Assembly (NCBI GenBank): GCA_903921365.1
Contig: CAIXPS010000011.1
Span: forward strand, 1 to 64,000
DNA: 64,000 nucleotides
Source: an uncultured bacterium
Lineage (GTDB): Bacteria; Chloroflexota; Anaerolineae; J036; Brachytrichaceae
Direction of reading: 5' to 3'
In this document: positions 1-15,028 of the stretch, one piece after another
How positions within the stretch are numbered: position 1 is the stretch's first letter
Layout of the letters: each line of letters begins with the position of its first letter
Program-made: the position numbers and the translations under genes
The notes under the pieces: model-generated
Database searches by the model: none
What the model was told of the DNA's origin: nothing
What the model saw: only the letters and a program-made list of their open reading frames with translations

Positions 1-745
1 CTTTGTTTTGCCGGAAACCCGCGTCTGCGCCTACGTCCTCTTGCGCAAACGATGCGGCCGTTACCAACACAATCAACGCAGGGAGAAACGCGCGCGTATG
101 TTTTGCGATATCTGGATGCGCGGTCGTCAGTTCGACGCGGAGGTGCTCCAACTCGGACGCAGTATCGATGTCATACCACGATGGCAACAGGCCGACTCGC
201 AAATTCATGTCGCGCGCGAGCGCGAGCGTATCACGCAACACGTTGGCCGTGCTCATCCTGACCTCGCGCAACAGGCGCGGTTGCGGTTGCTTCACCCCGA
301 TCAAATAATAGCCGCCGTCGTCGCACGGCCCAAGGACAACGTCGTCACGCCCATCCAGCAGATCAAAGGCGCGGTTGAGGTAGCTGCTGGGAAGTGTAGG
401 GCTGTCGCTGTCCATGACGACGGCCTGGCGCGCGCCAGCGCTCAAGGCATCGCACAGCACGTGATTAAGGCGCTCACCTAAATCGCTCCCGCGCTGCGCG
501 ACCAACTCCATGTCCGGAGCGAGTGCGCTGAACCAGGCGCGCGCGGCCTGTTCCTCTACTGGGCTGCCCGTAAGGTATGCGATAGTGCATCGCGCGTCAT
601 TAACCTGGCGCATCACATCGAGTGTGTCCTTTAGGAAACACTCATAGAGTCCAGCAGCCTGTGCGCCCGTCAGGGGTGGGCACAACCGAGTTTTGGAATG
701 CCCGGGTGCGGGCTGTTTGGCGACGACAAAAAGCTGGCGATCCAT
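1..745 (-). CDS. rSAM/selenodomain-associated transferase 1 (TIGR04282, CofC-like), 3' end off window
   Basis: Reading the minus strand from ATG at 745 gives 248 open codons that run off the left edge. The start shows the nucleotidyl/glycosyl-transferase pattern AKQPAPGHSKTRL (residues 9-21), then MDSDSPTLP (111-119) and LGPCDDGGYYLIG (138-150), the hallmark of the TIGR04282 family. Family members are about 200-230 residues, so little is missing. The family is known to co-occur with radical SAM genes and with transferase 2 (TIGR04283), which is present at 4253-5047 in the same cluster and orientation. Substrate unknown. No strong ribosome binding site precedes the ATG. Confidence 0.85.
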   Translation of the reverse strand, partial: MDRQLFVVAKQPAPGHSKTRLCPPLTGAQAAGLYECFLKDTLDVMRQVNDARCTIAYLTGSPVEEQAARAWFSALAPDMELVAQRGSDLGERLNHVLCDALSAGARQAVVMDSDSPTLPSSYLNRAFDLLDGRDDVVLGPCDDGGYYLIGVKQPQPRLLREVRMSTANVLRDTLALARDMNLRVGLLPSWYDIDTASELEHLRVELTTAHPDIAKHTRAFLPALIVLVTAASFAQEDVGADAGFRQNK

Positions 746-775
746 AAAGGGTTGGGAAGACAAGTTGCGATTCTT

Positions 776-816
776 ACGCAGATGTCTGACTTCTCCAAGA
801 AGTCAGACATCTGCGT
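776..816. repeat. Perfect inverted repeat, 19-bp arms, 3-base loop
   Basis: Arms 776-794 and 798-816 are exact reverse complements around the loop CCA; the core is ATGTCTGACTTCT / AGAAGTCAGACAT. Wobble and Watson-Crick pairs extend it by about three positions. It lies between the stop of the RAM-domain gene and the start of the transferase gene. A related element with the same GTCAGACATCTG core is at 44799-44846. There is no T-run next to it, so it is probably a dispersed palindromic element rather than a simple terminator. Confidence 0.8.
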
Positions 817-829
817 GAGTGGGGCTGCG

Positions 830-1072
830 CTACCAGACGACCAGGCAGGTTTCTGTGTGGCGGACGCCCACGGCGCCCGCAATTCCAGTGGTCACTCAGT
901 TGCCCAGCGACTGAAGATCAGGGCTGTCTATGTAGGCGATCAGATCGAATCGACCAGTTGTGGCATGCACTTCGCGGATGACGGAACCATCGAGGGTCAT
1001 TTCCCGGAGTTCCTTCACCAGGTCTTGAACGCGAGCAGGCTCAGCTTCTATTAAGACGTATGCGTTGATCAT
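830..1072 (-). pseudogene. Lrp/AsnC ligand-binding (RAM) domain protein interrupted by in-frame TGA
   Basis: ATG at 1072 follows AAAAGAG and opens a stand-alone RAM domain (MINAYVLIEAEPARVQDLV...). Translation meets TGA at codon 59 (896-898), right after LQSLGN. In the same frame 21 further codons complete the fold (VTTGIAGAVGVRH then ETCLVVW) before a TAG at 830-832, giving the normal ~80-residue length. So a full-length domain is split by one stop codon. Options are a recent nonsense mutation, a sequence error or read-through; other genes here use TGA as an ordinary stop. Stand-alone RAM proteins bind small molecules such as amino acids. An ATG at 1108 is possible but has no better ribosome site. 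Confidence 0.7.
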
Positions 1073-1126
1073 GATTACTCTTTTATGGGTTCTTAAAATG
1101 CCCTGCACGAGGGCAAATGACTATCC

Positions 1127-1951
1127 TCAGGTAAACGTCATCACCGGCGCAGCGCCGTTGCGCGCCATCTCATCCAGCACGGACTGAACGCGCTCCATGG
1201 CTTTGACCAGCGGGAACATCGTCTTACTCACCTGCATATCGGCATCGGTCGAGAGCGGGTGCCAGAAGATGCCGTCGATATTGACAGTGAGTTCGGGCAC
1301 AAGGTTGCCCATATTAAGTTCGAGCCCTTCCTTCGAATATCCGCGCTTTGCCAACGGACGGACGAAATGGTCTTCATCCGGGATACCGAGGGAACGATGA
1401 AAGGCGCAGACCTCGCGCAAGCGCGCGGCGTTGGCCGGCGTTTCCGTAGTGCCCAACCGGACGCGAAAGCCGTTCTGCTGCAAAAGCTGGATGCCCTCGA
1501 CTCCTTTGGCCCACGAACCGGCGCCGCGATAGGCGTCGTGGTCCGCCGCGTTACCGCCATCCAGGCTGACCTGCACCACCAGGTTGTCGTTATTGATGGC
1601 GCTTAGCTTCTCAAGGCGCGGCCCGCGCAGAAGCATGGCATTGGTCAGCACATTGGTTTTCACGCGCGCCGACGAATAGGCCAACATGTCATAGATGTCG
1701 TTTAGTAGAAACGGCTCGCCGCCTGTAAAGAACACCTGCTCGAAGTTCAATGCAGCGGCTTCATCGACCAGGCGCTTAACGTTCTGGAGCCCGATGGCGC
1801 GTCGCGCAGCGTTCGGGCTGGATTTGGCCACGCAGTACGAACAGCGCAGGTTGCAATCGTAGTTCGTGTATATCCACAGCTTCCACGCAAGGCCGGGAGG
1901 CGCGCACACCTCTTTTGCCTGGAGGCCGGTGTCCAATTGTGTCATGGACAT
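1127..1951 (-). CDS. Radical SAM protein
   Basis: The 274-residue protein has the radical SAM cluster motif CNLRCSYC (Cys 33, 37, 40), which binds a 4Fe-4S cluster, followed by FFTGGEPFL, the SAM-binding GGEP motif. It has no cysteine-rich C-terminal SPASM extension. It starts seven bases after the stop of the DsrE-like gene, so the two are probably translated from one message. The exact reaction is not evident. Its position next to TusA- and DsrE-like sulfur carriers suggests sulfur insertion or peptide/cofactor modification, but that is inference. Confidence 0.85.
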   Translation of the reverse strand: MSMTQLDTGLQAKEVCAPPGLAWKLWIYTNYDCNLRCSYCVAKSSPNAARRAIGLQNVKRLVDEAAALNFEQVFFTGGEPFLLNDIYDMLAYSSARVKTNVLTNAMLLRGPRLEKLSAINNDNLVVQVSLDGGNAADHDAYRGAGSWAKGVEGIQLLQQNGFRVRLGTTETPANAARLREVCAFHRSLGIPDEDHFVRPLAKRGYSKEGLELNMGNLVPELTVNIDGIFWHPLSTDADMQVSKTMFPLVKAMERVQSVLDEMARNGAAPVMTFT

Positions 1952-1957
1952 TAACCC

Positions 1958-2317
1958 TTAATAACTCAATGTCGCAGCGCCTTGTGACAGGAACTCCACC
2001 ACTGGCGCGCCGCCGGCGAATGTTGCGCCTGCGATCAGATTTTCCTTATCCAAACCGCGCGCATTAAAACAAGGCGGGCAAATCCACATCTTGCCGCCAT
2101 TGGCCGTAAAGGTTGCCAGCAATTCGCGCAACGGTTTGAAGCCCGGGGATTCGATATCTTCGGCGTAGCCTTTAATCGCAAGACGAACGGCTTCAACATT
2201 CAAAAAGATGACTACTTCCTGTCCAGCCGCCACGCCAGCATTAGCGATGACAAATGCTACTACGGTCTTATCCGGGTTGTCTTTTGCGGTCGTCAGGTTA
2301 ATTAATAATTTTGACAT
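1958..2317 (-). CDS. DsrE-like sulfur carrier/peroxiredoxin-family protein
   Basis: The 119-residue protein matches DsrE/DsrF-like folds: a hydrophobic first strand (SKLLINLTTA), a second strand with VVIFLNVEAV, and a C-x-x-C pair at Cys 80 and 83 in MWICPPCFNARG. The family carries sulfane sulfur on such cysteines and partners with TusA. It has a good ribosome site (AAAGGAG before ATG). It lies between the TusA-like gene and the radical SAM gene in the same operon, consistent with sulfur relay to one of the radical SAM enzymes (inference). Confidence 0.8.
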   Translation of the reverse strand: MSKLLINLTTAKDNPDKTVVAFVIANAGVAAGQEVVIFLNVEAVRLAIKGYAEDIESPGFKPLRELLATFTANGGKMWICPPCFNARGLDKENLIAGATFAGGAPVVEFLSQGAATLSY

Positions 2318-2368
2318 AACACTCCTTTGTATACCATAAAGTCGCCAGGTTAAGTTTGTAAATCCTGG

Positions 2369-2605
2369 TTAGCTTTTCTTGCGAATCACAAAGCGTTTGG
2401 GGCGCGAGCCAGAATCGCTTTCTACCAGTTCATTGCCAGTCATGCGGCACCACGCGGGAATATCGGTTTCCGCGGCGAGGTCATTGGCAGTGACTAACAG
2501 CGTTTCGCCAGGGGGCATGTGCTGCATCTGCTTGAAGATCAGCATAATCAGTTCGCCGCAGCCGGCTTCACCCGCATCAAGTTGTGAATCAATTGAAATC
2601 GTCAC
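2369..2605 (-). CDS. TusA/SirA-like protein with altered CPxP motif
   Basis: This 78-residue protein has the TusA layout: an N-terminal LDA...GC, then PPGETLLVTANDLAAETDIPAWC. The conserved first cysteine (Cys16) is present, but the usual C-P-x-P is replaced by C-G-E-L; a second cysteine is at 53. TusA proteins hand sulfur from IscS to acceptors. Translation starts at GTG immediately after the TAA of the SPASM gene, with GGAG about nine bases upstream, so the genes are coupled. The loss of the prolines suggests a specialised carrier rather than the housekeeping tRNA thiolation protein. Confidence 0.75.
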   Translation of the reverse strand: MTISIDSQLDAGEAGCGELIMLIFKQMQHMPPGETLLVTANDLAAETDIPAWCRMTGNELVESDSGSRPKRFVIRKKS

Positions 2606-3742
2606 TTATAAGCTCCACTGAACGCCACACCCTGCGCACGCGGTGTTTGGCGCATCACTCAACAGTCGCTCGCGCCACGTCTTGTAGCGTTCGGCGTTCC
2701 AAAGGTCATCAAACGGCTGTTCGAAGATATTGCCCAGCTTCAAACTCCCGTAGTCGCTGGTGGCAAACGGCGAGATGCAGCATGGCAACGCGTTGCCGTT
2801 GGCCGTAATATAAGCGGTCGTCCACGGACGCATGCAGGCTGCCCATGGGCGCGCCTGCGGTTTGGCAGTGACGCTGCTTTTTGGTGAACTGGCGCCGGAC
2901 GCGCGCAACATCACCCCAAGCGATTTTGCCAGTGTCTCGCTCTCGACCACGAGTTGGTCGACCTGTTCGTCAAATGTGGCGTACAGGCCATGGCCGCCTG
3001 CCAGCAACCCCGGCGCGCTGATGGCCTCGTCGCCGTAATAGACCATGCGTTGCAAGTACACCTCAGGGACGCCGATGCGCGCCGCAATGCGGACAACGTC
3101 GGGCAATTCGGCGATGTTCTCCTTCAAGCCCGTCATCCACAGGCTGGGCTGTGGGCGGTCGGCGCCCAGTTCTTTCTTTACTTCGACAAAGCGCTGCAGA
3201 TTCTGCAACACCTTGTGAAACAGGGGGGCGCCGCGAATCAGAGCGTATGTCTTCGGGTTGGCGCCATCGATTGACACGCGCAACTCATCCAGCCCGGCGC
3301 CGATTAACTTGCGCGACCACTCCTCTGTGAGCAGTGTGGCGTTGGTGTTAAACAGGACGTGGACGCTGCGCGCCTTTAGATGCGCGATCATCCGGGGCAG
3401 GTCCTTGTTCAACAGCGGTTCGCCGATGCCGTGCAGCACCGCGCGCTCCATCTCCGGGAATTGATCGACGAGGCGCAGGAAATCGTCCCACGACAGCGTC
3501 CTTGGCTCCTCGTAGCTCACGAACGTGCGCGGGCAGGTTTCGCACAGCAGGTTGCAATGGTTCGTAACCTCGATGAACACATTGTGCGGACGAACACTCG
3601 CTACGGCGCCGCGTGTCGCCGGGTCAATGGAGCGATAGGCGGCCGGGAGATACTCTCTCCCTTCGACATCCGGGAGGCGATAAGCTTCGGGCGGAGGACT
3701 CAAAGGCCCCTGTCCGCTTCCTGGCATCATCAAACTACTCAT
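2606..3742 (-). CDS. Radical SAM/SPASM domain protein
   Basis: From ATG at 3742 (378 residues) the protein has a radical SAM core with CNLLCETC (Cys 63, 67, 70), HGIGEPLL in the place of GGEP, and a C-terminal SPASM region with CMRPW, LPCCISPF and a final CAGC. SPASM proteins bind extra 4Fe-4S clusters and typically modify peptides or act in cofactor synthesis. A TTG at 3751 would add three residues; the ATG is preferred. It lies four bases after the DoxX-like gene and abuts the TusA-like gene, so all are probably one operon. No obvious precursor peptide was found. Confidence 0.85.
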   Translation of the reverse strand: MSSLMMPGSGQGPLSPPPEAYRLPDVEGREYLPAAYRSIDPATRGAVASVRPHNVFIEVTNHCNLLCETCPRTFVSYEEPRTLSWDDFLRLVDQFPEMERAVLHGIGEPLLNKDLPRMIAHLKARSVHVLFNTNATLLTEEWSRKLIGAGLDELRVSIDGANPKTYALIRGAPLFHKVLQNLQRFVEVKKELGADRPQPSLWMTGLKENIAELPDVVRIAARIGVPEVYLQRMVYYGDEAISAPGLLAGGHGLYATFDEQVDQLVVESETLAKSLGVMLRASGASSPKSSVTAKPQARPWAACMRPWTTAYITANGNALPCCISPFATSDYGSLKLGNIFEQPFDDLWNAERYKTWRERLLSDAPNTACAGCGVQWSL

Positions 3743-3755
3743 GATGATCAACCAC

Positions 3756-4256
3756 TCACATCAAGGCCGGCGCCGCGCGGCCAAACCAGTTTTTCCAGCC
3801 CTTCGCGCGATCCACCGACAATTGTCCCGACGCGCCCAACGCCACGAATATCAGGTTCAGCATGATGAGAAAGCCGTAATACCAGCCTTGCTCGTGGGGC
3901 ACGCCTGCCAGCCCGATCAGGAGGTTAACCGTCCACGCCGCGCCCACCAGCGCGCCAAACCGGGTAAAAAGACCCAGCACCAGGCTCAAGCCGATCAGCA
4001 CCTCGGTAATCGTGGTGATCCATCCAAAAAGATAAACGTTCGGTTGGACAATCTGACGGACGAAATCGGCATACAACTGAATGACGGGGTACTGAACTTC
4101 CATGTTCAGCCACAGACACAGGCCGGCATCGGGGCAGCCGAAAGAGGGCGGGGGTTTCCATGTAAGTTGCAACAGCCAGAAAATGCCCAGCAACACGCGC
4201 ATTCCAGTTACGAGCGCGCCTGCGAAGTCCTTTGACCAAAACTTACTCGTCTTCAT
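3756..4256 (-). CDS. DoxX-like integral membrane protein
   Basis: The 166-residue protein has four hydrophobic segments: VTGMRVLLGIFWLLQL, a stretch around YLFGWITTITEVLIGLSL, the run GALVGAAWTVNLLIGLAG, and YYGFLIMLNLIFVALG. This is the DoxX/TQO small-subunit pattern, a family of four-helix membrane proteins linked to quinone or thiosulfate redox chemistry. Its ATG overlaps the TGA of the upstream transferase gene (ATGA at 4253-4256), so translation is coupled. A role in membrane redox for the radical SAM cluster is inference. Confidence 0.75.
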   Translation of the reverse strand: MKTSKFWSKDFAGALVTGMRVLLGIFWLLQLTWKPPPSFGCPDAGLCLWLNMEVQYPVIQLYADFVRQIVQPNVYLFGWITTITEVLIGLSLVLGLFTRFGALVGAAWTVNLLIGLAGVPHEQGWYYGFLIMLNLIFVALGASGQLSVDRAKGWKNWFGRAAPALM

Positions 4257-5047
4257 CCCTTTTCCTCCACTCTATCATCTCTATCATCCGCACCCTGCGC
4301 GAGCTTGCCAGCCGTTGTCTCAACCTGCGACAGACGCTCACGCGGCAGCCATCTTCTGTACCAGTTGCGCAAAAAATTGCGTTTGACGCCGAGCCGATAC
4401 ATCAACTCAATCGATCCGGTGACACACAACGTTTTAAACACACCGTTGTGCACATGGCGCCTGGAATCCACTTGCACCGGAGCCGTGATCGTTGTGAGAG
4501 GCCCCAGCCGGCGCAACAATCCCGCAAAGTCCCAGTCCGAGGCGAACCCAGTTGTGGGATATCCGCCGCATCTTCTGAACACATCCGCGCGAATAAATGG
4601 AGCCGTATCGCCCGCGTACCAGCAGAACCGGCGCGTGCGCGCCTGCCATACGCGCTGCACCCACTCCAACATAATCCGCTCGCTGGCCGGGACAGTCCCG
4701 CTGAACACTGGCACGAACCCGCCGCCAATCACACGCGGATCGGACAGCGCCTGGTTCACTTTCTCAAACGCATTGGGCGGCAGTTGCACGTCGCAATGCA
4801 GAAAGACGAGTACTTCGCCACGCGCGCTTTCCGCACCCAGGTTGATCTGCCGGCCGATATCGGGCGTGGCGCCCGTTGGAACCTGTATGAGACGCGCCCC
4901 GCTGCGCACCGCCGCCTCGCGAGTCCCGTCGCTGCTGCCGCCATCCACCACAATTGTTTCGTGCTCGCCCGGCTGCTGGCGCACCGCTTCAACCGCCGCT
5001 GCAATGATCGCAGCCTCGTTTAATACAGGTATGATGACTGAGATCAT
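4253..5047 (-). CDS. rSAM/selenodomain-associated transferase 2 (TIGR04283), GT2-fold glycosyltransferase
   Basis: The 264-residue protein starts with the GT-A pattern ISVIIPVLNEAA and has VVDGGSSDGT (nucleotide-sugar binding), FLHCDVQLP (the place of the family's FLHAD metal motif), and a hydrophobic C-terminal region with MYRLGVKRNFLR. This architecture is that of TIGR04283. It is the first gene of the minus-strand cluster ending at the other partner transferase (1-745). A TATATA box lies 12 bases before the ATG (about 5060-5065). Confidence 0.85.
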   Translation of the reverse strand: MISVIIPVLNEAAIIAAAVEAVRQQPGEHETIVVDGGSSDGTREAAVRSGARLIQVPTGATPDIGRQINLGAESARGEVLVFLHCDVQLPPNAFEKVNQALSDPRVIGGGFVPVFSGTVPASERIMLEWVQRVWQARTRRFCWYAGDTAPFIRADVFRRCGGYPTTGFASDWDFAGLLRRLGPLTTITAPVQVDSRRHVHNGVFKTLCVTGSIELMYRLGVKRNFLRNWYRRWLPRERLSQVETTAGKLAQGADDRDDRVEEKG

Positions 5048-5200
5048 GGATGGGCGGACTATATACCCGAATTCTTACGAAAATCTTACGTCCTGCGTTG
5101 AACACTCAACCTGCGAATCTTCTGTTTGGGCGCAACTTTTGGGCATGGAAGCTCAGATCCCAGCGCGCGCCGCCAGCCAGTAATCGTGCATGCGCGCGGT

Positions 5201-5731
5201 TTAAATCGAGCGTGAGGCCGCTGCCTGGATTGTTGAGCTCATGGGTTTGCTATTATCCTCAGGCGACGCCACGACGCGCATCAACTCGATGCAGAAGCCG
5301 ATGGTGTCCTGCGTATCGAGGTAGCAGAATGAATTGCCGGTCTGGGTGTACACGCCCCCCATCTCGACCTGAACGCCGTTCTGGGCCAGATGCTCAAGGA
5401 TCGGGACGTCGTCTGACAGGGTGAACTTGATGTGATGGATGCCTTCGCCGTGCTGTGCGAGAAAATCGTGCCAGATGCTGGGCCCCTGCGCCGGTTCGAT
5501 CAACTCCAGGTCGACCGTGCCGAGGTTCGCCGACGCAATGCGGGCCGTGAACTGGCCAGGTTGTCCATGGTACTGCTTGAGCATAGGGCCGCGCTCCACC
5601 GCCGGATAGTCGATGATGTGGAACGGCCCGATGCCAAAGAGGCGCATCAGGGCCGCCACTTTGGCGTCGAGGTCGCGGACGACGACGCCCACCTGCACGC
5701 ACTGTTTGAAAAGGTTGCCCGGAATATCCAT
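5201..5731 (-). CDS. VOC (glyoxalase/methylmalonyl-CoA epimerase-like) family protein
   Basis: The 176-residue protein has a vicinal-oxygen-chelate pattern. CVQVGVVVRDLDAKVAAL gives the first beta-alpha-beta unit with Gln at the usual metal position; VDLELIEP, EGIHHIKF and FCIELM supply the remaining likely ligands (Glu, His, Glu). The arrangement resembles methylmalonyl-CoA epimerase and related lactoylglutathione-lyase-like enzymes, but the protein is longer and the substrate cannot be assigned. It is the last gene after the two beta-helix genes, ten bases from the nearer one. Confidence 0.7.
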   Translation of the reverse strand: MDIPGNLFKQCVQVGVVVRDLDAKVAALMRLFGIGPFHIIDYPAVERGPMLKQYHGQPGQFTARIASANLGTVDLELIEPAQGPSIWHDFLAQHGEGIHHIKFTLSDDVPILEHLAQNGVQVEMGGVYTQTGNSFCYLDTQDTIGFCIELMRVVASPEDNSKPMSSTIQAAASRSI

Positions 5732-5740
5732 AAGGTCTGA

Positions 5741-7552
5741 TTATCGTTGCACTATCGGCAGGAACGCGCTATGGGGGTACACATATTCCACCGCGCCGAT
5801 GTCGCAGGCGCCCGCCTGTGGCCGACTGACCCCACGCTGGTCGGACGCCGGGCAACCAGTATTTGTGCCAGCGTTGATGACCGGGCTCCCGTGTAAGGGC
5901 AGGAAAGTCAGCGTGGAACCGCCGTTATTCTGCAGCGGGCCGAGCAGCGGGTCATAACCAATGAGGTTGCTGCTGAATAAAAGGTCCAAATTGCAATAAT
6001 CGACGCCGTCTTTGACCAGGTTATTTCTGCCGGTGGCGGAGCCCTGGCAGTCACCCCCTGACGCGCTGCCGGCGATGATGATGTTAATCAGGACCAGGTT
6101 GGCGCTGGCGAAGTTCCTGATGCCGCCGCCAAAAAGCGTGGCCGTGTTGCTCATCAAGGTGCTGTTGGTCACGGTCAGCGCGCCGACGTTGGCGATGCCG
6201 CCACCGCTGTTGCCGGCGCTGTTGCTGACGAGGGTGCTGTTGACGATGGATGTCGTGTTGCCAATGTCGCTCATGATGCCGCCGCCGTTGTAGGCCGTGT
6301 TGCTCAGAAAGGTGCTGTTGGACACGCTGAGCGTGCCGTTGGCGCTTTCGATGCCGCCGCCACTTCCAGTGCCAGTGGCATGGTTGCTTGTAAAGGTGGT
6401 GTTGGTCACGCTCAATGACCCACTGTTGTAGATACCGCCGCCGTAACTGCTGGCTGTGTTGCTCATCAAGGTGCTGTCAGCCACTTGCAGCGCTCCCTCG
6501 TTGTACATGCCACCACCATTGGACGTGGTCGTGTTGCTCATCAAGGTGCTATTGTTGACTGCCAGCCTGCCCTTGTTGCTGATACCACCGCCACTGAGGG
6601 TGGCAAAGTTGCCTGTGATAGACCCGACGGTCACGGTCAGTTTGCCACCGCTGTTGTTCAAGATGCCGCCGCCGTTAGTGGCATGATTGCCTGATAAGGT
6701 GCTGGCGGTCATGGTCAGCAGATCGTTGGTGTCGTTGTATATCCCGCCGCCGTCGCCAGTGGTCACATTGCCAGTGATGGTATCGGCGGTCAAAGTCAGT
6801 GTGCCGCCGGTGCTGTTCCAGATGCCGGCGCCTCTGGTGGTGGCCTGGTTGCCAGTCAAAGAAGTGAGAATCATGGTCAGCGAGTTCCAGTTGGCAATGG
6901 CGCCGCCGTCGGTAGCTGAATTAACCTGGAAAGTGCCGTTGATAATGGTGGCCGGCCCGGCGTTCAACACGCCGCCGCCATAGACGGCCTGATTGCCCGT
7001 CAATGTAGTCAGAAACAGGTACATGCTGCCGCCGGCGTTGTAGATGCCGCCGCCGTAGATCGTGCTCGTGTTGCTGATGAAGGCGCCGAATGTCACGGTC
7101 AGCGTGCCGGTACTGTAGATGCCGCCGCCAGCAGAATCGTGGCCGTGGGCAATCGTGATGAATGTCAGAGCGAGTGCATGACCGGTGTTGACCGTCAGCA
7201 CGCGGTGCAAGTCGTTGCCGCTGATAACGATGGCATGGCCAGAGCCGTCGATGGTGATGTCGTTGTTGATGGCCGGCAGCGTGCTGGTCAACACGATGGC
7301 GCCGTTGAGACCAGGGGTAAAGACAATCGTGGTCGGCGTGCCGGCGATATTCGCGGCGTTGATCAGGTCGCGCAGCGAGCCAGCGCCGCCATCGGTCAGC
7401 GTCGTGACCGTGACCGTGGACGTGCCCGCATCAACTACCTGCGCCTGCAGCAATCCGGCGCAGACCGCTAACAAGACCGCCAGCCCGCCCGCCGCGAGCA
7501 GCCGGCTGAACTGCAATGTCCAACCTGACAATAGAAACCGTCGTATCATCAT
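5741..7552 (-). CDS. Secreted right-handed beta-helix repeat protein (choice-of-anchor Q type)
   Basis: The ~603-residue protein starts with a signal peptide (FSRLLAAGGLAVLLAVCAG) and a SLRDLINAAN segment, the CSLREA-like start of this class. The centre holds about 15 imperfect ~23-residue repeats of the form LTVTNSTLMSNTA..GGGI, each a predicted beta-helix rung. The C-terminus has DQRGVSRPQAGACDIGAVE, the choice-of-anchor Q motif, and ends AFLPIVQR. ATG 7552 follows AGGAG by eight bases; a GTG at 7555 is also possible. It is probably a cell-surface or extracellular protein. It is a close paralog of the gene at 7700-9361. Confidence 0.85.
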   Translation of the reverse strand: MMIRRFLLSGWTLQFSRLLAAGGLAVLLAVCAGLLQAQVVDAGTSTVTVTTLTDGGAGSLRDLINAANIAGTPTTIVFTPGLNGAIVLTSTLPAINNDITIDGSGHAIVISGNDLHRVLTVNTGHALALTFITIAHGHDSAGGGIYSTGTLTVTFGAFISNTSTIYGGGIYNAGGSMYLFLTTLTGNQAVYGGGVLNAGPATIINGTFQVNSATDGGAIANWNSLTMILTSLTGNQATTRGAGIWNSTGGTLTLTADTITGNVTTGDGGGIYNDTNDLLTMTASTLSGNHATNGGGILNNSGGKLTVTVGSITGNFATLSGGGISNKGRLAVNNSTLMSNTTTSNGGGMYNEGALQVADSTLMSNTASSYGGGIYNSGSLSVTNTTFTSNHATGTGSGGGIESANGTLSVSNSTFLSNTAYNGGGIMSDIGNTTSIVNSTLVSNSAGNSGGGIANVGALTVTNSTLMSNTATLFGGGIRNFASANLVLINIIIAGSASGGDCQGSATGRNNLVKDGVDYCNLDLLFSSNLIGYDPLLGPLQNNGGSTLTFLPLHGSPVINAGTNTGCPASDQRGVSRPQAGACDIGAVEYVYPHSAFLPIVQR

Positions 7553-7699
7553 CACATCATCTCCTATTCAATCCAACACCATTACATCCAATCAAAATCA
7601 GTCAATCCGTGCGCGGCGGTCCAGGCCGGCCGTCCACCGGTAGCGTCGCGGGCGATTCCAGAGCTCGACAGCACTCCGTTGAAATCCGCACAGGCCTGG

Positions 7700-9361
7700 C
7701 TAGCGCTGCAGCGTTGGCAAAAATGTCGCCCACGGCGACCACTCCACCGCGCCGATGTCGCACTTGCCGCCCAGCGGCCGCCGGAAGCCGCGCTGATCGA
7801 AGGCCGGGCACGCTGGCGCGGCGTTGGTTCCCGCGTTGATTGCCGGGCTGCCCGGCAGGGGCGCCATGCTCAGCGTCCCGAAGAGGCCGCTGTTGCCGTT
7901 CAGCTGCAGCGGGCCCAGCAGCGGGTCAGAGCCGACGATGTTGCCGTTCGCGCCATTCGTCAGTGCGCAGGCCGAATATCCGCTGTCTTTGATCAGGTTA
8001 TAGCTGCCGGTCACTGCGTAAAAAGTCCTGCAATCACCTCCCTGCATGCTATTGGCAATGATGGTGTTGGTCATGGACAACGTCCAGGCGCTGCTGAGAC
8101 CCCCACCACCGCCGCCGGTGCTGGCCGTATTATAGACAAGGGTGCTGTTGATCAAGTACAGCGTGCCGGCGTTGCTGATGCCGCCGCCGGTGTAGGCCGT
8201 ATTGCTCCTGATGGTGCTGTTGGTCAGGTTCATCATGCTGGTGAAGTCGTTGTAGATGCCGCCGCCGTTGATCGCGCTCATGTTGCTGATCAAGGTGCTG
8301 CTGTTCACGGTCGCCGTGCCCCTGTTTTCGATGCCGCCGCCACCCACTTGCGCAGTGTTGTTCATCAGGGTGCTGCCGTTCACGGTCAATAACTGATTGT
8401 TATAGTTGAAGATGCCGCCGCCATCGACAGTGGCCGTGTTGCTCATCACGTTGGTGGTGCTCACGGTCAGCGTGCCAAAGTTCATGATGCCGCCGCCGTT
8501 GCTGGACGCGTTACTCACCAGGGTGCTGTTGGTCACAGTCAGCGTGCCCTCGTTTTCGATGCCGCCGCCGTAACTGCTGGCTGTGTTGCTCAAAAAGGTG
8601 CTGCTGCTGATGGTCGCGGCCAGCGAGTTTGCGTTGCTGATGCCGCCGCCGTAATCGGCTGTATTGCTCAACAAGGTGCTGTGGGTCACGGTCAGCGTGG
8701 CATAGTTGTTGATACCGCCGCCATCGCTGGTGGACGAGTTGCTAACCAGGGTGCTGCTGATCATGGTCATTGTGTCATTGTTCCAGATGCCGCCGCCGAG
8801 GTAAGCCGTGTTTCTCACCAGGGTGCTGCTGATCACGGTCAGCGTGCCCGCGTTGAAGATAGCACCGCCGGTGCTGGCTGTATTACTCACCAGCGTGCTG
8901 TTGGTCACGGTCAGCGTGGCGTTGGCGCTGACAAAGATGCCGCCGCCAGGCGACCCATTGCCGTTTGCGATGGAAATGGACTGTATCCGCAGAGCACTAT
9001 TCGGATTCACAAACAGCACCTGGAACTGGTTTGCCCCACTGACGGTGATAGCGTGACCGCTGCCGTCGATGCTGACTGTATTGGTGATCACCGGCAGCGC
9101 CGACGTCAGGGTGATGACGCCGTCGATGCCGAAGGTGATGGCCGTAGGGCCGCTGGCGTTGGCGGTGTTGATCGCCTCACGCAGCGAGCCTGGACCAGTG
9201 TCCAGCGTGGTGGTGACCACGGACGTGCTTGCCTCAGCCACCCCGGCCACAAGAACGGCCATCAGCCCCACTCCAGCTGCGGCTGCATGTCGCGCCAGCC
9301 GAACCGAAAGGACACGCTGCGTAAAGCCAATTTGAGACAACACGACATTGAAATCAAACAT
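7700..9361 (-). CDS. Secreted right-handed beta-helix repeat protein, paralog of 5741-7552
   Basis: The 553-residue protein has an N-terminal hydrophobic export segment (AAAAGVGLMAVLVAGVAEAS), GSLREAINTANASG, then roughly 14 tandem ~23-residue rungs (STLVSNTA..GGGI.N.G), DQRGFRRPLGGKCDIGAVE, and the tail TFLPTLQR. A strong ribosome site (GAGGAG) precedes ATG 9361. With the next gene it forms a tandem duplication that has diverged in rung number. Because the rungs repeat at DNA level as ~69-base units, rung number may change by recombination. Function is unknown; such proteins are usually surface adhesins or polysaccharide-binding. Confidence 0.85.
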   Translation of the reverse strand: MFDFNVVLSQIGFTQRVLSVRLARHAAAAGVGLMAVLVAGVAEASTSVVTTTLDTGPGSLREAINTANASGPTAITFGIDGVITLTSALPVITNTVSIDGSGHAITVSGANQFQVLFVNPNSALRIQSISIANGNGSPGGGIFVSANATLTVTNSTLVSNTASTGGAIFNAGTLTVISSTLVRNTAYLGGGIWNNDTMTMISSTLVSNSSTSDGGGINNYATLTVTHSTLLSNTADYGGGISNANSLAATISSSTFLSNTASSYGGGIENEGTLTVTNSTLVSNASSNGGGIMNFGTLTVSTTNVMSNTATVDGGGIFNYNNQLLTVNGSTLMNNTAQVGGGGIENRGTATVNSSTLISNMSAINGGGIYNDFTSMMNLTNSTIRSNTAYTGGGISNAGTLYLINSTLVYNTASTGGGGGGLSSAWTLSMTNTIIANSMQGGDCRTFYAVTGSYNLIKDSGYSACALTNGANGNIVGSDPLLGPLQLNGNSGLFGTLSMAPLPGSPAINAGTNAAPACPAFDQRGFRRPLGGKCDIGAVEWSPWATFLPTLQR

Positions 9362-9604
9362 TACATCTCCTCTTGAGTTTCAACTCTCCGTTTGCGCAGT
9401 GCGATAGCGACAGGCAACAAGAGCGGCAGTGGCAATGCGAGCAACTTTCGTGCGGGGGGAGACTGCTCGTGAATCGCTCAGGAGACAGCCGCGCCAGGAA
9501 CGACGAGGGATTATAAGCCCACTAAGGTTTGCCATATACTTGGCCTGTTTCCATACACATGGGCAATCGCTGCTCGTGTTTAATGATTGATAAGGTGGCG
9601 AAAA

Positions 9605-9895
9605 ATGTCGGCATACGTGCTAAATCAGGTGGAGGTTACCGATCCGGTAGCCATGCAGGTATATATCAGAGGCGTCGCAGCCACGGTTGCTGCATATGGT
9701 GGCGAATATCTGGTGCGCAATGGCACAATTGAAACGGTGGAAGGCGACTGGGCGCCCAAAGGATTGATCATCCTAAGGTTTGCCAGTGTCGCCCGTGCCA
9801 GAGAATGGTTGAATTCGCCGGAATATGCGCCGCTCAAGCAGATACGCCTTACTGCCACGCGCAGCCAGATGATTATTGTCGAGGGTGTCCAGTAA
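9605..9895 (+). CDS. DUF1330 family protein
   Basis: The 96-residue protein (start ATG 9605, preceded by AAGGTGG) has the DUF1330 pattern: SAYVLNQVEVTDP, a middle GGEYLVRNG, VEGDWAPKGLIILRF, and a C-terminal RLTATRSQMIIVEGV. These are small dimeric alpha-beta barrel proteins of no established function. An upstream ATG at 9587 has no better ribosome site. It stands alone; the next gene starts 320 bases downstream. Confidence 0.85.
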   Translation: MSAYVLNQVEVTDPVAMQVYIRGVAATVAAYGGEYLVRNGTIETVEGDWAPKGLIILRFASVARAREWLNSPEYAPLKQIRLTATRSQMIIVEGVQ

Positions 9896-10072
9896 TTGAC
9901 TTGGCAGATACTTCTCATGCATATCGTGCCACCAACATGCAATACACCACCGCAGTTCCCGGCACGAGCCACGGCTATGCTACCGAATAGCCTGCGCTCA
10001 ATATCGATGTGCACCGGCGTGCCCCGGATTTCCAATCATCGCACGCAAGCGACCCTTCGGAAATGCGCCGAG

Positions 10073-10106
10073 GCGCGTTAAGAATCCCATTCCGTTCTTA
10101 ACGCGC
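10073..10106 (+). promoter_or_regulatory. Hairpin 1 upstream of serA (possible antiterminator)
   Basis: Arms GCGCGTTAAGAA (10073-10084) and TTCTTAACGCGC (10095-10106) pair perfectly over 12 bp around a 10-base loop. The 3' arm shares bases 10100-10106 with the next hairpin, so the two cannot form together. The rest of the 320-base gap 9896-10215 holds no supported gene; a third perfect stem is at 10134-10152 (CCCGGATT/AATCCGGG). Confidence 0.55.
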
Positions 10107-10120
10107 TTGAAGCGCGTTTT
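10100..10120 (+). terminator. Hairpin 2 upstream of serA, terminator-like
   Basis: AACGCGC (10100-10106), loop TTGAA, GCGCGTT (10112-10118) followed by a short T-run (10117-10120) looks like a weak intrinsic terminator. It may simply end DUF1330 transcription. Because it overlaps hairpin 1, it could also be the terminator of a serA attenuator. No leader peptide was identified. Confidence 0.5.
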
Positions 10121-10215
10121 GGCTTGTGTCAGACCCGGATTTCGAATCCGGGGCATCTGCGCATTACGTAATTCTTTCGCGCACCCGGCGATAATAACGC
10201 GCAGAGGAGTTGTTC

Positions 10216-11409
10216 ATGAAAGCATTGTTGCTCGAAGGGATTCATCGCGATGCGGCGGCGGCGCTGCTCGACGCCGGCTTTGACATCACACAGGTGCGCC
10301 ATAGCCCGGCGCTGGAGGAACTGACGGCCAAGGTCGCCGATGCGGATGTGTTGTGCATCCGCTCGCGCACGCGCATCAACGCCGACGTGCTCAACGCGGC
10401 CAAAGACCTGCTCGTGATCGGCGCATACTGCATCGGCACGGAACACATCGACCTTGACCTGTGCCGGAAACACGCCGTCGCCGTGTTCAACGCGCCCTAC
10501 AGTAATACGCGCAGCGTCGTCGAACTGGCGATTGGTGAGATCATCATGCTCATGCGCGGCGTGGTCGACCGCAGCGCCGACCTGCACACGGGCAAATGGA
10601 CAAAGTCCGCCGAAGGCAGCCGCGAGATTCGTGGGAAGCGGTTGGGCATTCTGGGCTATGGCAATATTGGTTCGCAACTGTCGGTGCTGGCCGAATCGCT
10701 CGGCATGGAAGTCGTCTATCACGATGTCGCCGAGAAACTGTCGCTGGGCAACGCGCGCAAAGTGACATTGCAGGAGTTGCTCGCGACAGCGGACGTGGTC
10801 ACGCTGCACGTGGACGGGCGCGCGGCCAACCGAGGATTTTTCGGTGAACGCGAGATATCGCTGATGAAGCCAGGCGCCATCCTGCTCAATCTGTCGCGCG
10901 GGTACGTGATCGACCTGGAGGCGCTGGCGAAGGCGTTGTCCTCTAAGAAGATCGCCGGCGCGGCAGTGGATGTGTTCCCAAAGGAGCCATCGAGCAACTC
11001 CGAGCGTTTTCACTCGCCGTTGCAGGGGCTGGGAAATGTCATCCTCACACCCCACATCGGCGGTTCCACTGAGGAGGCGCAACAGAATATCGGGCGCTTC
11101 GTCGCGGCGCGCACGCTCGAATATCTGCAAACCGGGAGCACCGGCGCATGCGTGAACCTGCCTGCAATCAACGCGACCGAGAAAAAAGGGTTGCACCGTT
11201 TTGCGCACATCCACGACAACATGCCCGGCATGCTGGCGAAAATTAACGACTTGTTCGCGGTCAACAGCGTAAACATCACCGGTCAGCACCTCGAGACGCG
11301 CGGCGACATCGGCTACGCCATCATCGACGTGGATGACGAGCAGGGGCCGGCGCTGGCGAGCAAGATCGCGGCGCTTCCAGGCACGATCCGCTCCCGCCTG
11401 GTTTACTAA
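10216..11409 (+). CDS. serA: D-3-phosphoglycerate dehydrogenase with C-terminal ACT domain
   Basis: The 397-residue enzyme would oxidise 3-phosphoglycerate in the first step of serine synthesis. It shows the D-2-hydroxyacid dehydrogenase layout: an N-terminal substrate domain, the NAD motif LGILGYGNIGSQLSV, LNLSRGYVIDLEAL, the catalytic-region TPHIGGSTEEAQ, and a C-terminal ACT domain (HDNMPGMLAKINDLFAVNSVNI). The short form with one ACT domain resembles E. coli SerA, which is inhibited by serine. ATG 10216 follows GAGGAG (10204-10209) by six bases; the TTG two codons earlier is less likely. Confidence 0.92.
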   Translation: MKALLLEGIHRDAAAALLDAGFDITQVRHSPALEELTAKVADADVLCIRSRTRINADVLNAAKDLLVIGAYCIGTEHIDLDLCRKHAVAVFNAPYSNTRSVVELAIGEIIMLMRGVVDRSADLHTGKWTKSAEGSREIRGKRLGILGYGNIGSQLSVLAESLGMEVVYHDVAEKLSLGNARKVTLQELLATADVVTLHVDGRAANRGFFGEREISLMKPGAILLNLSRGYVIDLEALAKALSSKKIAGAAVDVFPKEPSSNSERFHSPLQGLGNVILTPHIGGSTEEAQQNIGRFVAARTLEYLQTGSTGACVNLPAINATEKKGLHRFAHIHDNMPGMLAKINDLFAVNSVNITGQHLETRGDIGYAIIDVDDEQGPALASKIAALPGTIRSRLVY

Positions 11410-11425
11410 CGGCAAGGTCGATCCC

Positions 11426-12655
11426 ATGGCACACGACGCCGACGCGCGCTATATCATCTCGGACGTCCAGACAGAGCAGGATGCGACGGACTTCATTGCG
11501 CTCAATCAGGAAGTCACCGGCGAAGGAGCGATCTGTGATCGTCTCTTGCGCCACCGCCCTGGCAGCATTCCGAGCGACTACACCATTGTGCGCGAGGCTG
11601 GCAGCGGCAAGGTGGTTTCCACCACCTGCATTCTGCCCTGGCGGATGACATTCGACGGCGTGAGGTTGAAGGTCGCGATGCTGGAGATGGTGGTCACGCA
11701 TCCGGACTTTCGCCGGTATGGGTTGATCCGCCGGCAGATTGAGCGCTTTCAGCAGCGTGTGCGCGAACGAGGCGATCATCTGAGCATCATTCAAGGCATC
11801 CCCTACTACTATCGCCAGTTTGGCTATGGGTATGCACTCGACCACAGCCGGCGCATACGCCTGCCGGTGGCACGCATCCCGCAGAATGAACGCGCGGCTG
11901 AGTATCGGATCCGACCCGCTACATCGGATGACTACGCGGTCGTTACTGCTCTGTACAAGGTCGCAATGGCGCAGCAGGTCATTCATGTTGAACGCAACGA
12001 GGCTGCTTGGGCATACCTGCATCAGCACGCTGGTATGCCGCCGGTGATGATCGAACATGTGTCGACCGGCGTCGTTGCAGGTTATGCGCGCTGCACAATG
12101 GACGAAGGAGTGCTGAACGTCAGGGAAAGCGGATTGCATGAACCTGCTGTCGCATCGGAAGTTCTGTCGCTCCTTGCGCGGGATCAAGCTGGCGAATTCG
12201 CTGTGTATGGCAATCCGGCCGATTCGCTGTATCGGGCGGCAACGGCATTGGGCGGATCAGAAGCAATACCGGATCAATGGCTGCTCAACCTGCCCGACCC
12301 ACGCATGTTCTTATCCGCGATCATTCCGACTCTTGAGCGACGCCTGGCACAAAGCGACTTTGACGATGCGTCTGCGAACTTGATCCTCAACTTTTACCAT
12401 CGCGCGGTGCGCCTCCGTATTGAGAAGGGACGCGTCATGGGAATTGACGATATCGGTTTTGTCGACGCTTCGATGGGCGCGGATGGCGGCGACCTGTGCA
12501 TCCCGCCGGACGCCTTTGTCCGCCTGGTATTCGGGTATCGCAGCCTGGATGAGTTGCGGGACGCGTGGCCCGACATTGTCGCGCGGAAGCACAGCAGAGC
12601 TTTACTGGATGCGCTATTCCCGCTCATGTCGTCATGGATTTTGATGCCGTACTGA
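11426..12655 (+). CDS. GNAT family N-acetyltransferase (Eis-like)
   Basis: The 409-residue protein begins with a GNAT domain: LEMVVTHPDFRRYGLIRRQI is the acetyl-CoA binding V-x-P-x-x-R-R-x-G signature, and QGIPYYYRQFGYGYAL is a typical GNAT C-terminal strand region. A second region after about residue 150 (RIRPATSDDYAVVTAL) suggests a tandem GNAT domain followed by a sterol-carrier-like tail, as in Eis-type enzymes. ATG 11426 starts 16 bases after serA. Substrate unknown. Confidence 0.75.
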   Translation: MAHDADARYIISDVQTEQDATDFIALNQEVTGEGAICDRLLRHRPGSIPSDYTIVREAGSGKVVSTTCILPWRMTFDGVRLKVAMLEMVVTHPDFRRYGLIRRQIERFQQRVRERGDHLSIIQGIPYYYRQFGYGYALDHSRRIRLPVARIPQNERAAEYRIRPATSDDYAVVTALYKVAMAQQVIHVERNEAAWAYLHQHAGMPPVMIEHVSTGVVAGYARCTMDEGVLNVRESGLHEPAVASEVLSLLARDQAGEFAVYGNPADSLYRAATALGGSEAIPDQWLLNLPDPRMFLSAIIPTLERRLAQSDFDDASANLILNFYHRAVRLRIEKGRVMGIDDIGFVDASMGADGGDLCIPPDAFVRLVFGYRSLDELRDAWPDIVARKHSRALLDALFPLMSSWILMPY

Positions 12656-12690
12656 TGCCACACTAATAACTTTATCACGGAGCATTTTGT

Positions 12691-13860
12691 ATGAAAATCA
12701 CAAACGTTGAAGCCATCGTCCTCGACACGGGCAAGAACTACCCGGATCCATCGCAGGCCGCCGAGGCGCACGGCGTCCGGTTTGTGGCGCTGATCAAGAT
12801 CGATACCGACGCCGGCATTACGGGCTGGGCCGATATCGAGACGCAACCGCACGTCGGCAAGGCGATCGTCGATGCGCCATCGGGCGGGCAGATTGGCTTT
12901 GAGTCGGTGCGCGCCGCGCTGATCGGTGAAAATCCGCTGGAACGCGAACGGCTGTGGCAGAAGCTGTATCGCTTCATGGCCTACTATGGCCGGCAAGGCG
13001 CAGGGATGCAGATGATGTCGGGCGTGGACATTGCGCTATGGGACATCGCCGGCAAGGCGTGCGGTCAGCCAGTGTGGGCGTTGCTGGGCGCAAAGTACCG
13101 CGACCATGTCAAAGCCTATGCATCAACGCTGTTCCGCCCGACCCCCGACGACATGAAGCGCGCCGTGACCGGGTATCTGCAGCAGGGCTTTCGCGCGATC
13201 AAGTTCGGCTGGGGCGCGTTCGGTGTTGACCTGGCGCTTGATGTGCAGTTGGTGAAGGCAGCCCGTGAGGAAGCCGGGCCGGATATCGATTTGATGGTCG
13301 ATGGCGGCTGGTATGGGACAGGATATAACAACCCGTATCGCGCCCGACCAGTGAAGGATTGGATCAAGCTGGCGCTGCAACTCGAAGAGTTGGACGTGTT
13401 CTGGCTGGAGGATTTTCTGCATCCGGAGAACTTCAGCGGGTACGCCGAAGTTGCGCGCGCCACCCGCGGGCTGCGGATCGCGGCGGGCGAGCAACTGGCC
13501 GGCTACCCCGACTTCGAGCGGTTAGCGGTCGAAGGCCACGCCCACACGCTACAGCCCGACCTGTCGCGTTGCGGCGGCCTAACCGTGGGAAGGCAGATTG
13601 CGGACCTGGCGCAGCGCCGCGGCATCGACTGCGTGCCGCATGCGTGGCTGACCGACCTGCTCAAGGCGGCGTCGCTGCACCTCAACGCCTATCTGATGAA
13701 CTCGCTGTATCTGGAGTACAACGTGTCGTCCGCGTCGTTGTTGAACACTTTGTGCCGCCAGCCCTTGCGGATGGTCGATGGGGTGATCGCGATCCCCAAT
13801 GGCCCCGGGCTGGGCGTCGATGTCGATGAGGAGATCGTCGCGCGCTACCGCGTGGCGTGA
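12691..13860 (+). CDS. Mandelate racemase/muconate lactonizing enzyme (enolase superfamily) protein, likely sugar-acid dehydratase
   Basis: The 389-residue protein has an N-terminal capping domain and a TIM barrel with the enolase-superfamily ligands Asp204 (LMVDGG), Glu240 (WLEDF) and Glu267 (AAGEQ). Lys171 (IKFGWG) and the dyad Asp290-His317 (QPDLSRCGG, PHAW) are the acid/base groups. The D-H spacing of 27 is that of mandelate racemase subgroup enzymes, which abstract a proton alpha to a carboxylate. Acid-sugar dehydratase is the most likely activity; the substrate is open. An RBS-like GGAG precedes the ATG. The PIG-L gene follows 30 bases downstream. Confidence 0.85.
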   Translation: MKITNVEAIVLDTGKNYPDPSQAAEAHGVRFVALIKIDTDAGITGWADIETQPHVGKAIVDAPSGGQIGFESVRAALIGENPLERERLWQKLYRFMAYYGRQGAGMQMMSGVDIALWDIAGKACGQPVWALLGAKYRDHVKAYASTLFRPTPDDMKRAVTGYLQQGFRAIKFGWGAFGVDLALDVQLVKAAREEAGPDIDLMVDGGWYGTGYNNPYRARPVKDWIKLALQLEELDVFWLEDFLHPENFSGYAEVARATRGLRIAAGEQLAGYPDFERLAVEGHAHTLQPDLSRCGGLTVGRQIADLAQRRGIDCVPHAWLTDLLKAASLHLNAYLMNSLYLEYNVSSASLLNTLCRQPLRMVDGVIAIPNGPGLGVDVDEEIVARYRVA

Positions 13861-13890
13861 GAATTTCGTGTAAACAGGAGGTTGCAGGTT

Positions 13891-14598
13891 ATGAATGTTG
13901 TTTCGATCATGGCGCACCAGGACGATGAGATGCGCTGTCTGGGGGCAATGCTGAAGTGCCGCGCGCGCGGCGATCATCTCTTCTTCGTCACGCTCACCGA
14001 TGGCGCGAAGGGCATGGTGCAGACGCCCGCTATGCCCGCGAGCGAGGCCGGCGCGATCCGCCACGCCGAGATGGCGGCGCTGGTTGAAGCCGCCGGAGCC
14101 ACATTTTTGAACTTGCGCGAGCCGGATGAGTTTCTGTTCGATACACCCGCTGTTCGAATGAAACTGATCGACGCTATCCGCGCCACCGGGGCCGGCCTGA
14201 TCTTCACCCATTCGCCGCGCGACTACAACCTCGACCACGTCATGGTCAACCGGCTCGTGCGTCACTGCGCGATGCAATCGTGTCTGCCCGTCCTGCCCAC
14301 GCAATCGCCTGTGCTGGCGCAACATCCTGCTGTCTTCGAGTGCGAGCCGTTCGGGACGTTTGACTTCGACCCCAGCCATTACGTGGACATCACGCCGTTC
14401 TTTGCCGAAAAGGTGCGGCTGCTCAAGTTTCACCGCTCGCAGGAGGAGGCGATGCAACAGGCCACCGGGTCGGGGTTGGAGGTGATCTGTTCGCGACTCG
14501 ACTCTTATCGCGGCGACCTCGTGGGATGCCAATGGGCGGAAGGGTTTGTGCCGATGCCAGGGCGCGGAACGATCAAGCCGTATCCGGTGCTACCGTAG
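13891..14598 (+). CDS. PIG-L family (LmbE-like) deacetylase
   Basis: The 235-residue protein has the zinc motif AHQDDE near the N-terminus (AHPDDE in most relatives) and TDGAKG, then THSPRDYNLDHVMV, which carries the H-x-x-H-like second half of the site. The family removes N-acetyl groups from glucosamine-type substrates such as mycothiol precursors or GlcNAc-PI. ATG 13891 lies nine bases after GGAGG (13877-13881). It is close behind the enolase-superfamily gene, which suggests a shared carbohydrate pathway. Confidence 0.85.
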   Translation: MNVVSIMAHQDDEMRCLGAMLKCRARGDHLFFVTLTDGAKGMVQTPAMPASEAGAIRHAEMAALVEAAGATFLNLREPDEFLFDTPAVRMKLIDAIRATGAGLIFTHSPRDYNLDHVMVNRLVRHCAMQSCLPVLPTQSPVLAQHPAVFECEPFGTFDFDPSHYVDITPFFAEKVRLLKFHRSQEEAMQQATGSGLEVICSRLDSYRGDLVGCQWAEGFVPMPGRGTIKPYPVLP

Positions 14599-14614
14599 CA
14601 CCCTCAATGGTCGA

Positions 14615-15028
14615 TCAATCCCAGCTACCGCCTTCGTGACCGTGCAGCACCGATAGTGCGGCCAGTTGACCATGGTGGTGCATGGTGTGTTTGAGCGCGT
14701 ACACGTGATGGCCCATCACAGTCGTCTGCGACTCGGCGCCTTGTGGTCGGTGTTTGAGCAGGTCTGCATCGTTTAACGGCGCCAGTTGCGCGATGATGCG
14801 TTGCTCCAATTCGCGCGCATAAGCGACCACGACTTCTTTGCCGGGCATTCGCTCGATGGTCAGTTCCCACCAACCGCCGCCGAAGCGATGTCCCCACGCA
14901 TAAGGCCGGCCTTCGGCTTCAGATGCTGAAGAATACCGCGTGCTCCCTGCGTGCGCTTGCATACAGTTCCCATCATCGCGGATCAAACCCTCGGTTGCGA
15001 CGATGAATCCCCAATCTCCTATCTCCAA
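14615..15028 (-). pseudogene. DinB/YfiT-like metal-dependent protein, probably 5'-truncated
   Basis: The last ~75 residues fit the C-terminal half of a DinB-fold four-helix bundle: VVAYARELEQRIIAQLAPL, then HVYALKHTMHHHGQLAAL, with the metal-binding His pattern. The normal first helix is not visible. The first residues (MEIGDWG) come from translation of the GAGATTG-type intergenic repeat at 15009-15035, so the present start is probably artificial. Full DinB proteins are about 150-170 residues. It is best read as a remnant, though an unusual short form cannot be excluded. Confidence 0.5.

Follow-up and report, generated by a model that had tools for sequence, protein, structure and literature searches.

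Two predicted selenoproteins in a conserved radical SAM operon of the Chloroflexota

Results

Layout of the locus

We analyzed a 64,000-nucleotide stretch of DNA (the window; positions 1 to 64,000 of contig CAIXPS010000011.1, assembly GCA_903921365.1) from an uncultured bacterium of the Chloroflexota, which begins with an operon built around a radical S-adenosylmethionine (SAM) enzyme. Open reading frames of the window and profile searches placed all genes named in a preliminary description of this DNA on the minus strand, at the positions given there. Transcription runs from a TIGR04283-like gene through genes for a DoxX protein, a second radical SAM protein (rSAM2), a TusA-like protein, a DsrE protein, the hub radical SAM enzyme (rSAM1) and a stand-alone Lrp/AsnC ligand-binding domain (the RAM protein) to TIGR04282. 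From sequence comparison, we predict that two of these products contain selenocysteine (Sec): rSAM1 (1121-1951, minus strand, 276 residues) as its penultimate residue, and the RAM protein (830-1072, minus strand, 80 residues) at position 59. The earlier gene list stood for the genes it named; the true end of rSAM1, two codons past a UGA, and the RAM gene (1072-830) with its in-frame UGA had been overlooked.

A C-terminal UGA in rSAM1

The rSAM1 frame reaches an in-frame UGA at 1127-1129 (predicted Sec275), followed by GGA (Gly) and the true stop TAG at 1123-1121, so that the predicted C-terminus reads ...MTFT-Sec-Gly. The closest family model is NF049973 (Rv1681 family); rSAM1 including the read-through tail scores 295.7 bits against it, 4 more than without the tail (291.7 bits), and residue 275 falls on position 325 of this 326-position model. 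The general form of the end is ...TFT-UGA-GGN-stop. Among 47 homologous loci, 39 have UGA-Gly/Ala-stop, 1 has UGA-Gly-Lys-stop and 7 have Cys-Gly/Ala-stop; the Cys set includes the loci L061 and L062 as well as the mycobacterial-type L090 (...FPCA). UGA ends rSAM1 in 20 of 20 genes of the RAM-bearing set. UGA is also used as a genuine terminator, being the true stop of 12 of the 39 Sec-type rSAM1 genes, and this use as a true stop within the same operons led us to reject an altered genetic code. No hidden in-frame UGA was found in the other cluster genes, whose stop codons are mixed and show no conserved extension.

Just past the rSAM1 stop, in the 3' untranslated region, lies a hairpin (GCCCTC GTG CAGGGC; 1099-1115, minus strand) with the consensus GGCUCC-CGUGn-GGAGCC. 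Its core of 5 pairs is paired in 97.9% of cells over the 39 Sec loci, with double changes in all 5 pairs; 42 compensatory cells were counted, against 9.3 in shuffled alignments (0 of 500 as high) and at most 10 in slid controls. Because the hairpin stands outside the coding sequence, protein conservation cannot explain this covariation. Cys-type rSAM1 loci show no better pairing than shuffled sequence does. The published criteria for a bacterial Sec insertion sequence (bSECIS) ask for a hairpin 16-37 nucleotides after the UGA with a G at loop position 1 or 2 (PMC13188914); the window's hairpin agrees with them, its loop lying 17-18 nucleotides after the UGA, at -8.1 kcal/mol. A search of window positions 1-12000 with Rfam returned no SECIS. 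The energy z-scores of the two single hairpins in the window (that of rSAM1 and that of the RAM gene, described below) are weak, -1.2 and -0.8, and therefore our assignment of SECIS elements rests on conservation and covariation. Taking these data together, the rSAM1 UGA almost certainly encodes Sec, as far as comparison of sequences can tell.

As for the enzyme itself, its CxxxCxxC motif is invariant across 49 rSAM1 homologs. These three cysteines of the radical SAM cluster are the only conserved ones, and the C-terminal part has a conserved WHP motif, which may stand in for the auxiliary-cluster cysteines of related enzymes. In structure comparison the nearest folds are SkfB, BlsE, SuiB, DesII and EpeE, enzymes whose substrates are peptides or sugars.

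An in-frame UGA in the RAM gene

The open frame of the RAM gene is cut after ...SLGN-TGA, with the UGA at 896-898 (minus strand). Codon 59 is UGA in 20 loci and Cys in L061 and L062, so that every row of the alignment (A2) has Sec or Cys; we rejected the idea that this frame is a decayed fragment, since 20 loci share the break at exactly this codon. The product scores 33.2 bits against PF01037 (gathering threshold 25) when read through and 20.9 bits if cut at the UGA. Read-through adds a conserved tail up to Trp80, and in 14 of the 20 loci the 21 codons after the UGA share one end point. Third-position variability is equal before and after the UGA, except for seven hairpin codons that are nearly frozen. 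An AlphaFold2 model of the read-through protein shows a complete RAM fold (pLDDT 94.3) with Sec59 in helix 2; a product ending at the UGA would break off halfway through this helix, and only read-through completes the fold.

The hairpin of this gene (GCGGGCGCC GTG GGCGTCCGC; 860-880, minus strand) was assigned by the bSECIS criteria and by covariation. Hairpins in agreement with these criteria are present in 20 of 20 loci, with the loop about 24 nucleotides after the UGA and GUG in nearly all of them; columns 22 and 36 alternate between G-C and A-U (8 sequences). These features leave little doubt that the UGA of the RAM gene encodes the predicted Sec59.

In 22 loci the RAM gene follows rSAM1 at a short distance, and about half of the loci have rSAM1 without it. 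In a sample of 400 genomes, 2 RAM matches had an in-frame UGA, both inside rSAM1 clusters. Other Chloroflexota genomes also encode stand-alone RAM proteins in which Cys occupies the Sec site (L148, about 8034-8261; L149, about 7990-8217), near a gene that by eye resembles MoeA and with no rSAM1 nearby.

Selenocysteine machinery

The genome of the window encodes SelA (500 bits), SelB (331 bits) and SelD (375 bits), and its selD itself has an in-frame UGA. Across the Chloroflexota, tRNA-Sec was detected in 15 of 15 sampled rSAM1 genomes and in 280 of 385 others (p 0.009; the window's own genome left out). In Miltoncostaea, the cluster with a Sec-type rSAM1 adjoins selD-selA-selB. In L061 and L062, the two genomes whose rSAM1 and RAM genes both have Cys, there is no SelA, no SelD over the cut-off and no tRNA-Sec. 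Since the two are sister branches within the Sec clade of the tree, Sec was probably replaced by Cys in their lineage upon loss of the machinery.

The remaining genes of the operon

Upstream of rSAM1 lie genes for a TIGR04283-like family 2 glycosyltransferase (4253-5047), a DoxX/DoxD-like membrane protein (3756-4256; PF04173 30.8 bits, PF07681 29 bits), rSAM2 (2606-3742), the TusA-like protein (2369-2605; PF01206 45.2 bits, above the Pfam gathering threshold) and a DsrE-family protein with a CPPC motif (1958-2317; PF02635 56.5 bits). A TIGR04282/DUF2064 transferase gene follows the RAM gene (2-763); all are on the minus strand. The two radical SAM proteins and the DsrE-, TusA- and DoxX-like proteins of the preliminary description were thus recovered, and the SPASM region that it gave to one of the former belongs to the upstream one, rSAM2, which has PF04055 and PF13186 (57 bits). 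The nearest NCBIfam model to rSAM2 is TIGR04317 (136 bits, cut-off 380), and 8 cysteines are conserved in 20 homologs. The claim of two transferases holds for TIGR04282, at 173.6 bits against a cut-off of 134; the TIGR04283 match, 169 bits, falls just under its cut-off of 182.

The operon proposed earlier from overlaps and short gaps fits the spacing: the TIGR04283-like and DoxX genes overlap by 4 bases, the rSAM2 and TusA-like genes abut, and 6 bases separate DsrE from rSAM1. The 3' end of the operon is out of view: window position 1 is contig position 1, and the TIGR04282 gene is open there, running off the contig end.

The TusA-like protein has kept its Cys and lost the CPxP prolines (CGEL), as had been noticed. 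The free TusA proteins of related loci have the Cys in every row and the full CPxP in none. Pfam TusA recognizes the window's protein; its NF001423 score is 60.6 bits (cut-off 78). It also matches positions 2-52 of NF049973, the TusA-like N-terminus of Rv1681-family proteins, with 22.3 bits as a separate gene, and rSAM1 is not above the cut-off of that family (295.7 against 380 bits). Because rSAM1 is closest to NF049973 and the TusA-like protein matches the N-terminus of the same family, a Rv1681-type protein is split in two here. In forms where TusA and rSAM1 are fused, the TusA Cys has been lost.

Conservation of the cluster and its exchangeable modules

A conserved, biosynthetic-looking system had been proposed for this locus, and the neighborhood comparison over the Chloroflexota bears this out: the same genes recur together, in conserved order, in dozens of loci and are not scattered in relatives, so the cluster idea survives. 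It is very likely that they form one conserved functional system.

The modules upstream of rSAM1 vary, with TusA+DsrE in this window and FadE16+SBP-like or FadE16+DinB elsewhere. TusA+DsrE is absent or swapped out in the close relatives L042, L046, L060 and L062, and the switch can be seen between sister genes, as L061 has TusA+DsrE and L062 has FadE16+SBP. Counted per genome, DsrE and FadE16 occur together in 4, one of them only in 10 and 6, and neither in 3; strict mutual exclusion was rejected, the trend having p 0.086. The FadE16 and SBP-like proteins match the NCBI families Rv1679 and Rv1680, below the cut-offs, and their place beside rSAM1 is the mycobacterial Rv1679-Rv1680-Rv1681 order; FadE16-SBP-rSAM1 is also found on a plasmid of M. 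vanbaalenii and in a Myxococcota genome. A second, linked module, apparently for sugars, comprises NUDIX, TIGR04282, TIGR04283 and GT87-like genes, tied together by the fusions GT87-GT2 and DUF2064-NUDIX in Miltoncostaea. The constant features of the system are the Sec-type radical SAM enzyme and, in one clade, the Sec-type RAM partner, and not the sulfur carriers.

Several observations on individual loci were made in this comparison. One genome (G432) has two rSAM1 copies, L051 and L069, of which one has TusA+DsrE with RAM and the other FadE16+DinB without RAM. The rSAM1 of L041 (JAAUTF010000215.1), labelled Candidatus Gracilibacteria, is 79% identical to that of the window, and this contig is probably mis-binned or mislabelled. 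On the M. vanbaalenii plasmid (L090), a longer second radical SAM gene and a methyltransferase gene follow the Rv1681-type cluster (12439-14807), and deiodinase-like and AhpD-like genes lie upstream of it.

Discussion

Based on these findings, the best overall explanation of the locus is probably a radical SAM operon with two selenoproteins, together with the following mechanism. The invariant CxxxCxxC motif suggests that rSAM1 would make 5'-deoxyadenosyl radicals at a single [4Fe-4S] site. Its predicted penultimate Sec would sit on a flexible tail (-Sec-Gly or -Sec-Ala; some relatives, the mycobacterial Rv1681 type among them, have Cys instead), and the tail selenol may act as a mobile arm that moves into the active site as each turnover is completed, either for redox or to donate a hydrogen atom. 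The tail could then be recharged by the selenol of the RAM protein, the putative partner of the arm, and by an exchangeable module that supplies electrons or sulfur: here TusA+DsrE with its CPPC pair, and in relatives a FadE16-type flavoprotein with an SBP-like or DinB protein. The product would probably be glycosylated by the TIGR04282/TIGR04283/GT87/NUDIX module. The role of the tail Sec as a redox or hydrogen-donor arm is a tentative suggestion, to which we give somewhat less than an even chance. The fuller proposal, in which a radical SAM enzyme family (with Cys forms in mycobacteria) uses its tail Sec as hydrogen-atom donor or redox relay, has as its partner the first Lrp/AsnC-fold selenoprotein and makes a glycosylated metabolite, is more doubtful, and we regard it as rather unlikely in that complete form.

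Several points weigh against the selenoprotein prediction and the model built on it. tRNA-Sec was not detected in two assemblies, the window's own (603 contigs) and that of L040, where the best matches were tRNA-Ser; the candidates in these two genomes, at 47-49 bits, were rejected as such. Several relatives with tRNA-Sec nonetheless have Cys in rSAM1. The bSECIS energy limit is reached by 23 of the 39 rSAM1 hairpins only, though their covariation is strong; in the alignment behind that covariation (A4) the loop anchor was set by eye in 6 rows, and L078, which has a 4-nucleotide loop, was omitted. The AlphaFold2 model of rSAM1 was made without the C-terminal tail. If both UGAs were ordinary stops, and the conserved sequence beyond them chance or an overlapping element, the missing tRNA-Sec would be accounted for, as would the frequency of UGA, which several cluster genes use as stop codon more often than any other. 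This would leave unexplained, however, why Cys takes the place of UGA in exactly the genomes without Sec machinery, why hairpins covary and the frame is conserved past the UGA, and why the 63 nucleotides after the UGA have a mean identity of 72% in RAM and 35% in rSAM1, so that we find ordinary stops scarcely credible. All other tested genomes with a UGA locus have tRNA-Sec, and the gene is probably missing from the two drafts as assembled.

Other functions can be considered for the same genes. The preliminary description put sulfur transfer at the core. Worked out in full, this view has DsrE and TusA hand persulfide sulfur on to a radical SAM enzyme for the thiolation of a small molecule, which TIGR04282 and TIGR04283 then glycosylate. 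The Cys kept in all free TusA copies, the CPPC/CGVC pair kept in DsrE, the place of both directly beside rSAM1 in many loci and the fusion of a TusA-like domain to the radical SAM enzyme in the Rv1681 family all agree with this. However, the two carriers occur only in part of the related loci and are replaced in close relatives, the TusA-like domains fused to the enzyme lack the sulfur-carrying Cys, rSAM1 lacks additional conserved cysteines that could hold an auxiliary cluster, and the two selenoproteins are left unaccounted for; we consider sulfur transfer unlikely as the core function. A role in metalloid or organometal chemistry, with selenols binding or transferring As, Hg or Se and the transferases building the sugar part of an arsenosugar-like or Se-containing sugar, would suit the NCBI names of TIGR04282 and TIGR04283, which refer to arsenosugar biosynthesis, and a decayed Rhodococcus copy that stands among metal-resistance genes; selenoproteins are also known in other radical SAM and metal systems (PMC13188914). 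Against it stand the score of rSAM1 to ArsS (TIGR04167), 48.8 bits with a cut-off of 300, the TIGR04283 match under its cut-off, and the conserved neighbors, among which no arsenite methyltransferase was seen. This makes such chemistry quite improbable. Nor is the RAM protein easily taken for a peptide or protein that the radical SAM enzymes mature or use as a carrier, instead of a redox partner. It is small and close downstream of rSAM1, SPASM enzymes such as rSAM2 often act on peptides, and SkfB, SuiB and EpeE are among the nearest folds to rSAM1; yet it is a fully folded domain with no leader, and it is missing from about half of the rSAM1 loci, which leaves this alternative only a slim chance.

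Among known systems, the Rv1681 family resembles rSAM1 over the whole radical SAM part up to the C-terminal Cys, and FadE16 (Rv1679), SBP-like (Rv1680) and DoxX/Rv1678-like neighbors also occur beside rSAM1 in the Chloroflexota. Unlike in that family, the TusA-like gene here is separate, the tail has Sec for Cys, rSAM2, DsrE and the RAM selenoprotein are present, and the score lies below the cut-off. TIGR04167/ArsS and TrsS (NF045646) share with rSAM1 that they are radical SAM enzymes containing Sec; rSAM1 differs in its low score to TIGR04167 and its penultimate Sec, and TrsS is not among its 25 best matches. Thioredoxin reductase has the C-terminal tail -Gly-Cys-Sec-Gly. A penultimate Sec followed by Gly is thus common to both; rSAM1 has no neighboring Cys and the enzymes are unrelated, so that the likeness is one of the tail only. 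The stand-alone RAM proteins TTHA0845 (2djw, the nearest) and FFRP-DM1 (2e1a) have the same fold as the RAM selenoprotein (TM-score 0.86-0.88) and no Sec, the residue of 2djw aligned to Sec59 being Asp. In YedF, TusA-like and DsrE-like parts adjoin each other. A link of YedF to selenium has been described (PMC9312934), so that, compared by description only, adjacency and selenium link recur here, whereas the window has separate genes and has lost CPxP.

A 2026 catalogue of 119 prokaryotic selenoprotein families (PMC13188914) has no Lrp/AsnC-type member; the radical SAM families that it contains are TIGR04167 and TrsS. The RAM family is not represented by a model in NCBIfam, where the Rv1681 model carries no description as a selenoprotein. 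Our literature search, for which subscription papers were mostly beyond reach, returned nothing relevant on the function of Rv1678-Rv1681 or on AsnC selenoproteins. As predicted here, rSAM1 and RAM would therefore be two selenoprotein families absent from the catalogue and from NCBIfam, and the RAM fold is not listed there. When UGA is read as stop, rSAM1 ends two residues early and loses its probable active residue, and RAM is cut at 58 residues. Because rSAM1 is related to the Rv1681 family, and the model of that family has the matching Cys at its end, the rSAM1 tail offers a direct test of what the conserved Rv1678-Rv1681 cluster does. If the model is true, rSAM1 would show a new way of ending a radical reaction, by a selenol within a radical SAM enzyme.

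Surroundings of the operon

Directly upstream of the operon, on the minus strand, lies a glyoxalase/methylmalonyl-CoA epimerase-like gene (5201-5731). Beyond it, at 5741-9361 on the same strand, two adjacent large proteins are encoded with repeats of the SNTAS..GGGI type, which by appearance resemble secreted beta-helix repeat proteins. Between the RAM gene and TIGR04282 there is a perfect 18-bp inverted repeat (777-794 and 798-815); a third copy with one mismatch is found at 44827-44844, where 0.04 would be expected by chance, and this repeat is perhaps a small mobile or repeat element.

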